From positions 310,001 through 374,000 of the forward strand of contig NZ_JAMGBE010000002.1 of assembly GCF_023516575.1 (NCBI RefSeq): 64,000 bases of DNA, read 5' to 3'. Under the pieces are notes generated by a model that was not told the origin of the DNA, made no database searches, and saw nothing but the letters and a program-made list of their open reading frames with translations. How positions within the stretch are numbered: position 1 is the first letter of the stretch; each line of letters starts with the position of its first letter. The position numbers and the translations under genes were made by a program. Origin of the DNA: Sphingomonas hankyongi (GTDB lineage: Bacteria; Pseudomonadota; Alphaproteobacteria; Sphingomonadales; Sphingomonadaceae). Below are positions 7,006-11,910 of this stretch, one piece after another.

Positions 7006-7443
7006 TCATGTGGGACGAGCAGGCTTGAAGTGCGCGGGCATGCGTGCTTCCAGCCGGTTTCCGCATTCGGACCGCCCATATTCGATTTGCCTGGCCCACG
7101 CCCGAAGCAGCCTCAAACCAGCGCCGCCTCCGCGGCTTGGTATTGCTTGCTCCGTCTCTCCCGCCGAGGGATCGAACGGCTTTGCGGAATCCCTGAGAAC
7201 AAGGACGACGTCCCCGCCCTGAAGCGCGAGCTCCAAGATCACCTCGTCGTCGGGACCGAGGCCGCCATGTTCGTACAGGTTGGTGACGAGTTCCTCGACC
7301 ACAACGGCGAGCTTCGAGACATCGCTCTCTTCGATACGCCCTTGTTCGCCGAACTGGCGCGCCGCCAGCGTGGCATCGTGAATCGGGGTCTGCCCTGATA
7401 GACAAAGACGTAACGGAGCCGGAATTGATTCGCGCGTCCCCAC
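7006..7443 (-). CDS. RsbW-like ATP-binding anti-sigma/serine kinase
   Basis: HATPase_c_2-type protein like RsbW/SpoIIAB, which phosphorylates a STAS antagonist and sequesters a target protein. The N-box is VVEELVTNLYEHGG and the G-box region is GGGAGLRLLRAWA. I use GTG 7443 (145 residues); an ATG at 7488 is in frame but would overlap the first codon of the divergent FecR gene. It is oriented away from the rest of the signalling locus, whose STAS and PP2C genes lie 4-5 kb to the right. Partner assignment is inferred from proximity. Confidence 0.8.
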   Translation of the reverse strand: MGTRESIPAPLRLCLSGQTPIHDATLAARQFGEQGRIEESDVSKLAVVVEELVTNLYEHGGLGPDDEVILELALQGGDVVLVLRDSAKPFDPSAGETEQAIPSRGGGAGLRLLRAWARQIEYGRSECGNRLEARMPAHFKPARPT

Positions 7444-7487
7444 CCGCTGCCATATGGCATGGTCGGGGAACGGGTGGGAGACGCGCA

Positions 7488-7922
7488 ATGGTTCGCAGTT
7501 CGCTTTTCCTTATTTCACTGGCCGCGTTGATTTCATCGCCGGCCGCTGCCGAGATCGGCAGGATCAAATCCAGCGTAGGTTCGGCATCAATCGAGCGGGG
7601 ATCGAACCACATCCCAGCTGCTATCGGGCAAGAGCTGATGCCGGGCGATTGGCTGGTCACCGGCAAGGATGGGCGAATGAGCCTGACCTTCGTCGACAAC
7701 ACGCGCTTCGCGGTCGGCCCGAACAGCCGCATCGCGCTCAGCAAGTTCGAATATGACAAGACGAAGCAGAACGGCTCGTTCGTGACCAAGGTCGAGCGCG
7801 GATCGCTCGCCGTCGTGTCGGGGAGGATCGCAAAGTCCGGCCGCGACGCGATGCAAGTCAGCACGCCCGAATCCCTCCTGGGCGTTCGCGGCACGCGCTT
7901 CATCGTCGAGGTGCGGCCGTGA
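7488..7922 (+). CDS. Secreted FecR domain protein
   Basis: A 144-residue protein with a signal peptide (LFLISLAALISSPAAA) followed by one FecR domain (from IGRIKSSVGSASI to LLGVRGTRFIVEV). It lacks the transmembrane anchor and anti-sigma N-terminus of true FecR regulators, so it is probably a periplasmic sensor or scaffold. ATG 7488 is chosen over an upstream in-frame ATG at 7425 because the signal peptide starts there. The stop overlaps the start of the next gene (GTGA), implying translational coupling to the OmpA lipoprotein. Confidence 0.85.
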   Translation: MVRSSLFLISLAALISSPAAAEIGRIKSSVGSASIERGSNHIPAAIGQELMPGDWLVTGKDGRMSLTFVDNTRFAVGPNSRIALSKFEYDKTKQNGSFVTKVERGSLAVVSGRIAKSGRDAMQVSTPESLLGVRGTRFIVEVRP

Positions 7923-8503
7923 ACGGGCGCGTCGTCGCGCTGTTGGCGCTATTCGGGCTCGCCGCGTGCGCGCACTCGTCGATGGTCCTGTTGCCTGACG
8001 AGAACGGCGGCCACGGCCAGGTCGCCATCCTGAAACCTGACGGGACCGGCGAGACGCTCGTCAGCGAGGCGAACAGCCGCGCGACGCTCAGTGCAACGCC
8101 TGCCATCCATCCGTTGGGATCAAAGGGCCTGAAGCCGACGGAAGCGGCGCTGCTTGCATCGCTTCCCCCGCCGCCGAAGAGCTTCACGCTCTATTTCCTC
8201 GAGGGCACGACGGAGATGACCGAGAAATCGGCACCTTTGCTGGATGAGATCAAGGCAGAGATTGCGGGTCGTCCGGGCGCCGAGGTGCAAGTCACAGGCC
8301 ATACCGATACGGTCGGCAGCGACGCGGACAATGACGCGCTTTCCCAGAAGCGGGCAGAGGAGATCATGAGCTTGCTCGCGAGCAAGGGATTCGACCGCAC
8401 GATCATGAGCGCGGTCGGACGCGGGGAGCGCGAGCTGCAAGTCCCGACAGACGATAATGTCAGCAGCCCGGTGAACCGCCGCGTGGAGGTGATCGTCCGC
8501 TAA
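7919..8503 (+). CDS. OmpA-family lipoprotein
   Basis: A 194-residue protein starting with GTG that overlaps the FecR gene by 4 bp. The lipobox GLAAC at about residues 13-17 predicts an outer-membrane lipoprotein. The C-terminal half is an OmpA peptidoglycan-binding domain: FLEGTTEMT, then VQVTGHTDTVGSDADND, with the conserved LSQKRAEEI and NRRVEVIV segments. Together with FecR it makes a cell-wall-anchored periplasmic pair next to a CHASE2 receptor, so I infer a sensory role. It converges on the phosphatase gene; the stops overlap in CTAA. Confidence 0.86.
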   Translation: MNGRVVALLALFGLAACAHSSMVLLPDENGGHGQVAILKPDGTGETLVSEANSRATLSATPAIHPLGSKGLKPTEAALLASLPPPPKSFTLYFLEGTTEMTEKSAPLLDEIKAEIAGRPGAEVQVTGHTDTVGSDADNDALSQKRAEEIMSLLASKGFDRTIMSAVGRGERELQVPTDDNVSSPVNRRVEVIVR

Positions 8504-10566
8504 CGCTCGGCATTCTGGCCGAGATAGCGCAGCACCATGACCGTGAGGTCGTCGGTTGGTTCGATTCCGCCCTCGAACGTCCGGACGGCGTCACGCAAGC
8601 CTTCGCACAGAGCGGTGGCGCTCTGAGTTCGCGATGCGGTTTCGAGCAGCAGGCGATCGCGGCCGTAGAGTGCGCCCGCCGCATCCTGCGCTTCGGTGAT
8701 TCCGTCCGTCACGAGCAGGAGGGCGTCGCCCGGCGAGAGCTTCAGGGTCTCAACGGGATAGGGATATTCGACCAAGCCTAACGGCGGGCCGCCATCGAGG
8801 CGGTGACTGCGCGCCTCGCCGCTGATTTCCACCGTGATTGGGTCCTCGTGACCGGCGCAGACCAAGGACAGGCCTCCATCGCGGAGGTCCAGCACGCCTA
8901 TGATCATCGTGACGCTAAGCGCTTCGGCGCCGCCGCGTAGCAACTCCTCGTTGACGCTCGCCACTGCGGCGCCGAGATCCCGGTTCTCACGGTTCAAAAC
9001 GAACGACGTCAGCGCCTTGGACATGGCCATGAAAAGCGCTGCGGGCACGCCCTTCCCAGTAACATCGCCCACCAGAAATCCGATGCGGTCATCGTCGAGA
9101 CGCGCGAGATCATATAAATCGCCCCCGACAGACCGCGCCGGCTCGAGCAAGGCATCGGCATCGAGCCGCGGATCGGCAGCAGCCAACTTCGAGCGGGGCG
9201 GCACCATGCTCATCTGAATCTTCCGCGCTGCCTGCAGCTCGCCTTCGGTCTTCGCCGCCGCCATCTGTTCCTGAAGGAGCGCGTTGCGCAGCCGCTCCCG
9301 CTCGCGCCGGGAGTCGGCGAACAGGCCGACGACAACGCCCGCAAGGGCGGCACCGCCGATTTCGAGCGGACGAACTGCATCGACCAGCAGCGAGAGCCGA
9401 TCGAAAGCGAGCCAGCTGGCGATGGGGACTGCGACGAACGCCGCAGTCAAGGCGAGCCTGGGCCATCGTCCCGTCCACGCGACGGCCAGGGCTGCTAGGG
9501 CCAGAAGCGCTCCACCAAGCCATTCCGCCGCCGCGGCCCATGTCGGTCTCGACAGCCAGCCCCCGTTGAGGATCGTGTCGATCGCTTCCGCCTGCACGAC
9601 AACGCCGAAATTCTCCGAGGCGAGGGGCGTGGCGACGATGTCGGACGTGCCTTCAGCGGCGAGGCCGACGAGTACGATCTTGTCCCGAAAATAATCGGTC
9701 GGAAGGGTATGGCCCAGGACTTGCCGCGCGGAGACGATATTCGCGTGCGGAAATTCGCCAAAGCGGAAGTGCATCCTTCCCCGTGGGTCGATCGGAATTC
9801 GCCGACCTGACAGCTCTACCGCTTGGGACGAAACGCGGATGGTTTCCGCGTCTAGGCTTAGCCGAGCGAGCTCGAGTGCCAGCCCCGGCATTGTTCGACC
9901 TACCACGCTTCCGATCAGCGGAACGGACCGAACGACGCCATCCGCATCCGGCTGTCCATTCACGAGCCCATGTCCCAGCGCCGTGTCCTCCAACTCCGGA
10001 ATGGCGGTGATCGCCGCCGGCCAATGGTCGGTCCCTTTCGGAGGCGTGCCCTCAAACTGCGCGTCGACAACGAGCAGGCGCGGATCGGTAACGCCTTTCG
10101 ACGCGCCGGCGCGCGCGATCACAACCGGCGATTGGCCGATGACCTGTCCGAAGAGCTGGTCCATCGACGGCAATCCGACGACTTCGCTTGCGGCTTCCGG
10201 CGTGAGCTCCGGGTACATTTTGGCGAACAGCTCCGGTTTCGCGCGATCCGGCTCGGGGAAGAGCACGTCGAAGCCGATGACCTTCGGGCCCTGGCGGTTA
10301 ATGTCCTCGGTCAGGCGGCCGAGATAGTAGCGCGACCAGGGCCACGGCCCCACGGCAGAAAGGCTCTCGCCGTCGATCAGGACGACGCGCACCTTCGGCG
10401 CCGCGCTGTCGCGCGGGCTCAGGCGCTGCCAGCCATCGAAAAGCGCCTGGCGTGTCTGCTCGCCGGTCGCCATCGAAACCAGGAGTGCGATGAAAAGCGC
10501 CGCGAGCCACGTCGGCCAGACGTTGCCGCGACGCCGGAGTCTAAAGAAGGATTTCGAGCCCGTCAT
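8500..10566 (-). CDS. CHASE2 sensor / PP2C (SpoIIE-type) phosphatase
   Basis: A 688-residue membrane receptor. A first transmembrane helix near residues 17-35 is followed by a periplasmic CHASE2 domain (VRVVLIDGESLSAVGPWPWSR to about residue 310), then three hydrophobic helices around residues 345-425, a short linker, and a SpoIIE-like PP2C domain (GGDLYDL, VGDVTGKGVPAALFM, VCAGHEDP, LLVTDGITEAQ) carrying the metal-binding aspartates. By analogy with RsbU it should dephosphorylate the STAS protein coded two genes upstream when its periplasmic domain senses a signal. It overlaps the preceding MBL gene by 26 bp, so the operon order is STAS, MBL, PP2C. Confidence 0.92.
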   Translation of the reverse strand: MTGSKSFFRLRRRGNVWPTWLAALFIALLVSMATGEQTRQALFDGWQRLSPRDSAAPKVRVVLIDGESLSAVGPWPWSRYYLGRLTEDINRQGPKVIGFDVLFPEPDRAKPELFAKMYPELTPEAASEVVGLPSMDQLFGQVIGQSPVVIARAGASKGVTDPRLLVVDAQFEGTPPKGTDHWPAAITAIPELEDTALGHGLVNGQPDADGVVRSVPLIGSVVGRTMPGLALELARLSLDAETIRVSSQAVELSGRRIPIDPRGRMHFRFGEFPHANIVSARQVLGHTLPTDYFRDKIVLVGLAAEGTSDIVATPLASENFGVVVQAEAIDTILNGGWLSRPTWAAAAEWLGGALLALAALAVAWTGRWPRLALTAAFVAVPIASWLAFDRLSLLVDAVRPLEIGGAALAGVVVGLFADSRRERERLRNALLQEQMAAAKTEGELQAARKIQMSMVPPRSKLAAADPRLDADALLEPARSVGGDLYDLARLDDDRIGFLVGDVTGKGVPAALFMAMSKALTSFVLNRENRDLGAAVASVNEELLRGGAEALSVTMIIGVLDLRDGGLSLVCAGHEDPITVEISGEARSHRLDGGPPLGLVEYPYPVETLKLSPGDALLLVTDGITEAQDAAGALYGRDRLLLETASRTQSATALCEGLRDAVRTFEGGIEPTDDLTVMVLRYLGQNAER

Positions 10567-11518
10567 AGGCGCACAGCACGTCGAGCGGAAATCCTCCGCG
10601 CGTCAGCTTCTCATAGCGGATGCTGTCCTCGTGCATGCGCTGAATGGCTTCATCGTCGTGGAACGGATCGTGATGGAACAAGGCAAGACGCCTGGCGCCC
10701 GCCTCGCGGCACAGGTCGATCGCGACGAGGTTGCTGGAATGACCGCGATCCTCTTTTGCCATATTGCTCGCCGCGAGCGAGTACATGGTGTCGCAGATGA
10801 CGAGGTCGGCTTCGCGGAAGAAAGCCGTGAAAGCATCTTCGCGGGCCATGTCGTCGATCCGATGCTCGCTGTCGGTGCTGTAGACCACGCTTCGGCCAGC
10901 GGCATCGCCGAAACGATAACCGAAGCTTCCATGAGGATGGTCCTGCTGCATCGCGGTGACGCGCAGGCCATCGACTTCGATTTCCTCGCCCGGCCTGACG
11001 GCGACGAAGCTGATCGTCGCGGCCATGGCCTCGAAGGGCACGGCCGAGAAAATCTCGTCCTGTTGGCGCCTCAATGCATCTTCGGCGTCCGGATGGCAGG
11101 AATGGATGATGATTGTCGAAGCGTCGTCCTGGGCGGGCAGGAACGACGGGAATCCCATGATGTGGTCCCAATGCATGTGCGACAGGAAGACATTGAACTT
11201 CGCAGGCCGGCCGCGCCGGCACAGCCCCATCGCCTCGCGGCCGAATTGCTGGAGCCCGCTCCCCATGTCGCAGACGAAGAAGGCGTCGTCGCCGCTTTCG
11301 ATCTCAACGCAGCTGGTGGCCCCGCCATAGGTCGCGGTCGCCGCGAAATCGAGTTCCTCGTCGATAAACCGCGCCGCATCTTCGAAGCTGGCGATCGAAG
11401 CGCCGCGAGCGACCACCAGCGCGTTGGCGATCTTGGCTCTAACCTCCCGCGCGGTCGAGGCCACGGGCACGACCCCTCGGGTTCCCCAGAACCGAACCAG
11501 CAACGGGTCGGCCGTCAA
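10541..11518 (-). CDS. Metallo-beta-lactamase fold hydrolase (COG1235-like)
   Basis: 325 residues. The N-terminal RFWGTRGVVPVAS segment is typical of the PhnP/class II phosphodiesterase branch of the superfamily. The metal motif HMHWDH holds His114, His116, Asp118 and His119, and further ligands are likely in STDSEHR and HHDPFHDDE. The start overlaps the STAS stop (ATGA) and the end overlaps the phosphatase gene, so it is embedded in the signalling operon. Its substrate cannot be read from sequence; a cyclic nucleotide or other small phosphodiester is a reasonable inference for this branch. Confidence 0.85.
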   Translation of the reverse strand: MTADPLLVRFWGTRGVVPVASTAREVRAKIANALVVARGASIASFEDAARFIDEELDFAATATYGGATSCVEIESGDDAFFVCDMGSGLQQFGREAMGLCRRGRPAKFNVFLSHMHWDHIMGFPSFLPAQDDASTIIIHSCHPDAEDALRRQQDEIFSAVPFEAMAATISFVAVRPGEEIEVDGLRVTAMQQDHPHGSFGYRFGDAAGRSVVYSTDSEHRIDDMAREDAFTAFFREADLVICDTMYSLAASNMAKEDRGHSSNLVAIDLCREAGARRLALFHHDPFHDDEAIQRMHEDSIRYEKLTRGGFPLDVLCAYDGLEILL

Positions 11519-11910
11519 GCGCCGCCACCCTCGGCAAAGGGGACGGTCTCATCGACCGCGAACAACCGATCGTAGCGGCTGATCGCAAGTATCTCGCGCA
11601 TGATGTCGTTGGGGGCCGCGAGCCTGACGGAAACCCCGGCCCCGACGCCTTCCTGCTTGGCCACGGTCAGGGCGCGAAGCCCGCGCGAGGACATATATTC
11701 GATCCCCGAGAGATCTATGATCATAGTGGGGCGAGACTGGCTCGCAGCTTCCTCGACGCCCCTGCTGAGGTGGGCGCCGAATTTTTCCCATGTAGCTTCG
11801 TCGACCCGCCCAACGGGCGCGACGATCACTGCTTCAGGCGACAGGCCGTAAGTGACCTCCACGATCGCCGCTCCCGCTGCGTAGGGACCGGATGATATGT
11901 TGATGGCCAA
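11515..11910 (-). CDS. STAS domain anti-sigma factor antagonist
   Basis: 131 residues with an RsbV/SpoIIAA fold: VIVAPVGRVDEATW strand and the phospho-acceptor loop IIDLSGIEYMSSRGLRAL, where Ser74 or Ser75 is the expected phosphorylation site. It is the first gene of the STAS-MBL-PP2C operon. In partner-switching systems the dephosphorylated form binds an RsbW-type kinase; the only such kinase in the window is at 7006-7443. No sigma factor gene is adjacent, so the final target is unknown. Confidence 0.88.
   Translation of the reverse strand: MAINISSGPYAAGAAIVEVTYGLSPEAVIVAPVGRVDEATWEKFGAHLSRGVEEAASQSRPTMIIDLSGIEYMSSRGLRALTVAKQEGVGAGVSVRLAAPNDIMREILAISRYDRLFAVDETVPFAEGGGA

Follow-up and report, generated by a model that had tools for sequence, protein, structure and literature searches.

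Partner switches are best known as controls of sigma factors, and for some of those in proteobacteria the client has not been identified. The locus described here lies in a stretch of 64,000 nucleotides from Sphingomonas hankyongi (contig NZ_JAMGBE010000002.1, positions 310,001 to 374,000; hereafter the window), where positions 7006 to 11910 encode a STAS protein, a metallo-beta-lactamase (MBL)-fold hydrolase, a CHASE2-PP2C receptor, an OmpA-domain protein, a FecR-domain protein and a HATPase kinase. Its nearest described relatives, RsbU/RsbV/RsbW and RbaY/RbaV/RbaW, likewise combine a PP2C phosphatase, a STAS protein with a phosphosite serine and a HATPase kinase. In the accessible text on RbaVWY of R. 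capsulatus, the sigma partner is given as not identified and no sigma gene lies near rbaVW, as at the window locus (PMC3999984). The latter differs from the Rsb and Rba sets by having CHASE2 in place of REC on the phosphatase and by the addition of FecR, OmpA and MBL, with MBL adjoining or fused to STAS. In contrast to RsbUVW it has no linked sigma-factor client: five sigma genes were found in the genome, and neither the window nor the rest of its contig has any, which agrees with the absence of a nearby sigma gene reported in a first-pass annotation of this DNA and rules out an adjacent sigma factor as the output. Our favoured reading, to which we give slightly better than even chances, is that the MBL hydrolase would be the STAS-gated output of an envelope-responsive partner switch, because STAS is adjacent or fused to MBL, a duplicated STAS-MBL pair has been kept, the MBL clade carries an insert, and the contig has no sigma gene.

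A parallel for an enzyme as client is SiaABCD of Pseudomonas aeruginosa, in which the diguanylate cyclase SiaD is presumably linked to the other Sia genes. The accessible parts of the literature describe a module of PP2C, kinase and STAS in which the last of these has an enzyme as its target (PMC8457831, PMC9239204), SiaC being the activator of SiaD (PMC8457831). While SiaD is the target there, the adjacent enzyme at the window locus is an MBL hydrolase, accompanied by FecR and OmpA; moreover, the title of PMC7647112 calls SiaABCD a threonine phosphorylation pathway, whereas the window STAS protein has a serine. On the sensory side, clusters of CHASE2-adenylate cyclase, phosphodiesterase, FecR and TPR genes are described for Campylobacterota in the accessible part of PMC9239204; these resemble the window locus in CHASE2, FecR and a hydrolase, but have a cyclase as output where the window has SpoIIE, STAS and HATPase, and TPR where it has OmpA. 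The BiofilmReg operon of Burkholderia contaminans (response regulator, LysM-FecR, CHASE2-histidine kinase, DUF4136; PMC5192318) also pairs a CHASE2 receptor with a neighbouring FecR protein that bears a peptidoglycan-binding domain. Its output is two-component, and the accessible text names no STAS, PP2C or MBL (PMC5192318). No description of the six-gene set was found in open-licence PMC text, and lactamase, phosphodiesterase and CHASE do not occur in the accessible part of a review of STAS-only proteins (PMC8256260). The unit is apparently undescribed, and the remark of the first-pass annotation that it was not familiar as a described system still holds.

Translation, Pfam searches and coordinates bore out the six gene families and their overlaps as first annotated, and all six translations passed the Pfam cut-offs. 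Three genes on the minus strand encode a single-domain STAS protein (11515–11910; STAS, 5.1e-12), the MBL-fold hydrolase (10541–11518; Lactamase_B_2, 2.3e-19) and a receptor composed of CHASE2, a membrane part and a PP2C (SpoIIE) phosphatase (8500–10566; CHASE2 1.7e-53, SpoIIE 3.2e-42); with the listed starts STAS and MBL overlap by 4 bp, and MBL and PP2C overlap by 26 bp. The plus strand carries the FecR-domain gene (7488–7922; FecR 5.5e-11), whose product has an N-terminal signal-like stretch by eye, and, overlapping it by 4 bp, the OmpA-domain gene (7919–8503; PF00691, 2.2e-17), whose product has Cys17 in a lipobox-like stretch, again by eye. The OmpA and PP2C genes stand tail-to-tail with a 4-bp overlap. 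Beyond FecR, on the minus strand, lies the gene for an RsbW-type HATPase_c_2 serine kinase without HisKA (7006–7443; PF13581, E = 1e-15); it begins with GTG, its first residues (MGTRES) agree with those of relatives (MNKRES, MSPRES), and a gap of 44 bp (7444–7487) separates it from the divergent FecR start. For STAS and MBL, the true starts are probably downstream of those listed, at GTG 11862 and TTG 11503 respectively, because the starts of relatives match there.

The residues expected of a partner switch are intact. STAS Ser75 (codon 11686–11688, minus strand), which corresponds to the residue that receives the phosphate in STAS proteins of the RsbV/SpoIIAA type, was invariant in 12/12 aligned rows, and a serine was also found in all 52 full loci described below. 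The HATPase retains its ATP-binding boxes, with E50/E51/N55, D85 and G105/G106/G109 invariant in 10/10 rows, and the PP2C aspartates D483, D501, D621, D672 and D673 were invariant in 12/12 rows. These motifs lend good support to the view, already taken on first pass, that the six genes include an RsbUVW-type partner-switching set. From the motifs and the co-occurrence of the genes we infer that the HATPase would phosphorylate Ser75 and that the PP2C domain would remove the phosphate.

Within the window genome, the locus kinase gave the strongest PF13581 match (a 167-residue frame) and the only short-frame HATPase_c_2 match; the other twelve were found in frames 279 to 801 residues long, as is usual for histidine kinases. 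Likewise, the locus STAS was the only one in a short frame, the one other STAS being part of a 589-residue frame, and SpoIIE matched the locus receptor with 148.9 bits and a second protein with 30.6 bits (cut-off 25). The switch proteins would therefore have few other partners of the same kind in this genome. In addition, the HATPase profile was found in 12/12 genomes with the module and in 0/14 module-free congeners, two weak matches in 341- and 368-residue frames being set aside. Both results favour the earlier proposal that this kinase and this STAS protein are partners.

To what extent the six genes belong together was assessed from a wide scan with an MBL profile, which returned at least 478 loci. 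The best 80 were analysed; they were selected by MBL alone, with families called by profiles built in this analysis, and represent 80 loci, not 80 genomes (L097 and L124 come from one metagenome-assembled genome, MAG, and L094 and L045 are one and the same). All six families occurred in 52 of the 80 in one order and orientation, i.e. STAS, MBL and CHASE2-PP2C in one direction, OmpA and FecR (read in that order along the locus) against it, and HATPase again in the first direction; L121 was counted as full despite an extra weak CHASE2 match upstream. Full loci came from Sphingomonadales, Caulobacteraceae, Rhodospirillales, one Rhizobiales genome, Burkholderiales and other Betaproteobacteria, as well as from MAGs, whose labels may be in error: those of Lysobacter and Stagnimonas, four of Rokubacteria and one assigned to Deltaproteobacteria. 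MBL identity within this set ranged from 43 to 94%. Flanks of 3.5 kb, in which open reading frames were present on each side in 49/52 loci, had little in common, the commonest flank family being common to 5 of the 52.

The same picture emerged at the level of the order. Of 246 genomes, 28 had a CHASE2-PP2C match, 12 of them full-length (own genome included); STAS-MBL lay directly upstream of CHASE2-PP2C in 12/12 full-length cases, and all six genes were detected in the same order and orientation in nine. At L049 and L050 the first three genes alone were linked, with FecR-OmpA and HATPase elsewhere in the genome as one divergent block. Flanks mostly differed; common flank genes were seen among the window, L044 and L047 and in the pairs L046/L047, L049/L050 and L052/L053, and L043 carries one flank family twice. 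The unit is thus real and conserved, far beyond chance: the 52 full loci, the 12/12 upstream STAS-MBL pairs and the unshared flanks rule out a chance neighbourhood. The first-pass annotation had named the lack of a conserved neighbourhood in related genomes as grounds for dropping its proposal; such a neighbourhood is present in both samples.

Might the set nevertheless consist of separate units, a sensor of CHASE2, FecR and OmpA on the one hand and a STAS/MBL pair unrelated to it on the other, brought together by chance or by shared transfer? The set does fall into blocks in three genomes (G065, G203 and G982), and both a separate STAS-MBL pair and a solitary MBL gene occur. However, the split genomes still hold all parts, with FecR-OmpA/HATPase elsewhere in the genome, and order and orientation persist down to 43% MBL identity without common flanks, so that we regard this explanation as highly improbable. 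FecR-OmpA and HATPase were seen together, away from STAS-MBL-CHASE2-PP2C, at L189 (6116–7610), L190 (7388–8879) and L223 (5439–6924).

Among the 28 loci outside the full set, nine are truncated downstream by the end of the contig (L103, L135, L139, L141, L145, L147, L156, L164 and L167). Three linked genes only were found at L099–L101 (the L099 genome has the other three elsewhere) and at L143, where the other families were not found in the 3.3 kb after PP2C. STAS-MBL pairs only occur at L124–L128 and L133 (L125 being a short contig), and MBL alone at L111, L116, L122 and L140, while L153, L154, L163 and L169 have other arrangements. On the short MAG contig of L104 (1–3447), STAS-MBL and OmpA/FecR/HATPase are present with CHASE2-PP2C missing between them, owing either to deletion or to an assembly fault. 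As regards the 80 loci as a whole, CHASE2 or PP2C is split between two frames at L134, L149 and L161, perhaps through sequencing faults.

Throughout these rearrangements STAS and MBL tend to stay together. In 74/80 loci STAS immediately precedes MBL or is fused to it, and the two are kept without nearby CHASE2-PP2C, FecR or OmpA at L124–L128, L133 and L169 (a STAS-MBL-HATPase locus), and at L167, which is cut downstream. Single-frame STAS-MBL fusions occur at L153, which HATPase adjoins, and at L163; at L154, with 0.95 kb available upstream, MBL and HATPase are accompanied by STAS. At eight loci (L124–L128, L133, L163 and L167) neither PP2C nor a free HATPase was detected near STAS-MBL; weak HATPase matches at L126 and L127 belonged to frames of 344 and 529 residues. 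The STAS proteins of L124–L128 have alanine at the phosphosite (5/5), and the four of their genomes that were examined (those of L124 and L126–L128) also hold a complete six-gene module with serine (L217–L220). A simple rule, that the phosphorylated serine disappears together with kinase and phosphatase, is refuted by these 4/5 genomes. The STAS-MBL pair has, by these sequences, evidently been duplicated and kept as a pair with loss of the phosphosite, and STAS and MBL would therefore form a functional pair. The gene after the pair in L124, L126 and L127 resembles TruB, judged from its first residues. A tandem of two STAS genes precedes MBL in the full module of L131 (2093–2923).

How STAS might act on MBL is suggested by a segment of the latter. 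Between WGTRG and YGG the window MBL protein has 48 residues (11330–11473, minus strand), and the corresponding segment measured 46–51 residues in 64/64 rows of the MBL clade (chosen from 92 MBL rows, among which one locus occurs twice) compared with 11 in 21/21 sister MBLs, most clade members having 47–48 residues in this comparison. An AlphaFold2 model renders the insert mainly as helices (predicted local distance difference test, pLDDT, 75–86), and it is perhaps a dock for STAS. Judged from the fusions, the adjacency and the duplicated pair, unphosphorylated STAS would bind MBL, perhaps via this candidate dock, and set its activity. This sharpens the first-pass suggestion that the MBL enzyme adds a small-molecule input or output: MBL is most likely the output, gated by STAS.

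A number of observations weigh against MBL as the gated output. An alanine at the phosphosite does not go with absence of kinase and phosphatase, both being present in the four genomes of that kind examined, and L133, L163 and L167 keep the serine with neither a PP2C nor a HATPase gene near. MBL is kept in the L116 genome, which gave no HATPase or SpoIIE match genome-wide, and in the L122 and L140 genomes, where HATPase matches are weak and in frames of 942 and 597 residues; since the insert is also present in these three MBLs, it does not strictly track STAS. At L164, where a clade MBL is followed by CHASE2, the 3.3 kb upstream contain no STAS and the genome gave no HATPase match; OmpA was not detected at the order locus L052. 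The correlation of distances in trees of the other parts with those of MBL (rho 0.70 to 0.88, none of 500 permutations above 0.21) may come from shared descent alone. A STAS-MBL fusion model reached a predicted template-modelling score (pTM) of 0.71, which is insufficient for positioning STAS relative to MBL, and an interface drawn from it was discarded as unusable. Finally, in the L111 genome MBL stands apart from a STAS/CHASE2-PP2C/HATPase cluster (L221, 5035–7833) that lacks MBL, FecR and OmpA.

The L221 cluster would fit a different wiring, in which HATPase is an anti-sigma factor or binds some other unlinked client that STAS releases, MBL only tuning the input, e.g. through synthesis or breakdown of a ligand. 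In its favour, the HATPase is similar to the kinase portion of RsbA-family anti-sigma factors (NF041045; 1.7e-11 and 44 bits, cut-off 210), and the five sigma factors of the genome could be clients. Yet the contig carries no sigma gene, no further family is common to more than five of the 52 full loci, and this wiring accounts poorly for the STAS-MBL fusions and for the retention of a separate STAS-MBL pair. We therefore consider an anti-sigma or other unlinked client unlikely, and return to MBL as the probable output.

What MBL would hydrolyse was approached through its fold. The HxHxDH motif (H114–H119; 11162–11179, minus strand) is complete, H114, H116, D118 and H119 being invariant in 64/64 MBL rows. 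YhfI and RNase Z are tied as the closest folds to the predicted model, the former with a Foldseek value of 1.1e-16 and Z 27.5 (root-mean-square deviation 2.5, 237 aligned), the latter with Z 28.3 (2.5, 249 aligned). Sequence models likewise gave 65.9 bits for the cyclic-nucleotide phosphodiesterase model NF041851 (cut-off 400) and 65.1 bits for the RNase Z model TIGR02651 (cut-off 292.95), both far below their cut-offs. According to the accessible text of PMC9117128, YhfI prefers cyclic AMP and cyclic GMP (cAMP/cGMP) and Apyc1 cleaves cyclic mononucleotides. The window MBL shares the fold (as predicted) and the HxHxDH motif of these class II phosphodiesterases and differs by its helical insert and its linkage to STAS; the model suggests that it is most likely a YhfI/class II-type phosphodiesterase acting on a small phosphodiester signal. 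A cAMP phosphodiesterase, considered as a firm claim, was lowered to a possibility: searches for class III and class I cyclases found neither in the window genome, which argues against a cAMP/cGMP role in this host.

The missing cyclases and the tie with RNase Z in fold and sequence scores could point to an RNase Z-like nuclease with RNA processing as the output, which would be compatible with STAS gating. Against this, on an Ensifer plasmid (L194) the gene of a sister MBL (38% identity) overlaps that of a CHASE2-cyclase, with FecR and TPR genes alongside, and another sister follows a CHASE2-cyclase at L211. Class III cyclases were also present in 11/11 other module genomes tested versus 4/14 module-free congeners, but lineage and genome size confound this co-occurrence, which was not used as proof. 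A nuclease is, on balance, the less likely answer, and a small phosphodiester remains our preferred substrate. The link of sister MBLs with cyclases is a minority trait: in 20 sister neighbourhoods, CHASE2-cyclase was found in two (L209 and L211) and a cyclase without CHASE2 in two (L210 and L216), and among 214 plasmid records (search at 1e-20, all <60% identity) CHASE2-cyclase occurred in one of three regions examined. The Ensifer region (L194, 452–5765; CHASE2-cyclase, MBL, FecR, TPR) adjoins NHLP bacteriocin export genes and resembles the Campylobacterota CHASE2/FecR/hydrolase clusters, with MBL as the hydrolase.

FecR and CHASE2 recur together beyond this unit. Ten partial CHASE2 matches were obtained at the order level, and the six examined all carry cyclase domains; FecR is tail-to-tail with the CHASE2-cyclase at L055, L059, L060 and L062, divergent at L057 and not found at L058. 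CHASE2/FecR thus looks like an exchangeable sensor chassis. This recurrent pairing, also with cyclase outputs, fits FecR/OmpA signalling to CHASE2. We infer that FecR in the periplasm and the OmpA lipoprotein at the outer membrane and peptidoglycan, with C17 and R145 invariant in 9/9 rows, would report the state of the envelope to the CHASE2 domain of the PP2C receptor. A defence system was also considered and rejected, as PADLOC matched the OmpA domain only, to MotB-like ZorB models (2.7e-8, 1.2e-5).

The gene layout itself is conserved. FecR-OmpA is antisense and nested between PP2C and HATPase in 52/52 full loci, the PP2C and OmpA stops are ≤60 bp apart in 43/52 (median gap 6 bp), and the domain edges of HATPase and FecR lie 37 to 308 bp apart in the 52 loci, compared with 44 bp between starts in the window. 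In their arrangement, the four cytoplasmic genes are laid out like a noncontiguous operon, a form reviewed in PMC7154746 (accessible part). One promoter-like site lies ahead of the likely STAS start (11921–11892), 0.8 being expected by chance; no sigma-70-like site was found in the 44-bp HATPase-FecR gap, and no terminator-like site at the PP2C/OmpA junction.

Taken together, an OmpA-FecR-CHASE2 sensor of peptidoglycan and outer membrane might drive a serine switch that gates a phosphodiester hydrolase via a docking insert, an undescribed class of signalling, with the noncontiguous operon coupling sensor and kinase levels by antisense transcription and the CHASE2/FecR chassis elsewhere driving a cyclase. 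We put this whole forward tentatively, as a possibility that falls short of being probable. If it were true, synthesis and breakdown of a nucleotide signal would both be under the control of a single receptor family. The likely output would be encoded inside the unit itself, whose conservation extends from Alphaproteobacteria to Rokubacteria MAGs, and CHASE2 and FecR, two widespread sensor parts, would gain an enzyme as read-out. The locus also offers a conserved case for the study of nested antisense operons, and three small soluble proteins would be enough to put its proposed output to the test.

The system is patchy in distribution. In a phylum sample of 398 genomes, the MBL clade was found in three at the strict threshold of 1e-80 (own genome included), and in a class sample of 385 genomes, 82 had an MBL match at 1e-40, with 16 matches >280 bits (own included) and those below 280 bits being mostly shorter sister MBLs. 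Other PP2C proteins of the order, at L054, L056 and L061, have STAS and HATPase within about 7 kb and no MBL; these are separate partner switches. Near the module, L046 (2870–3922) and L047 (15579–16601) have a gene in common whose product is TIR-like by eye at its N-terminus.

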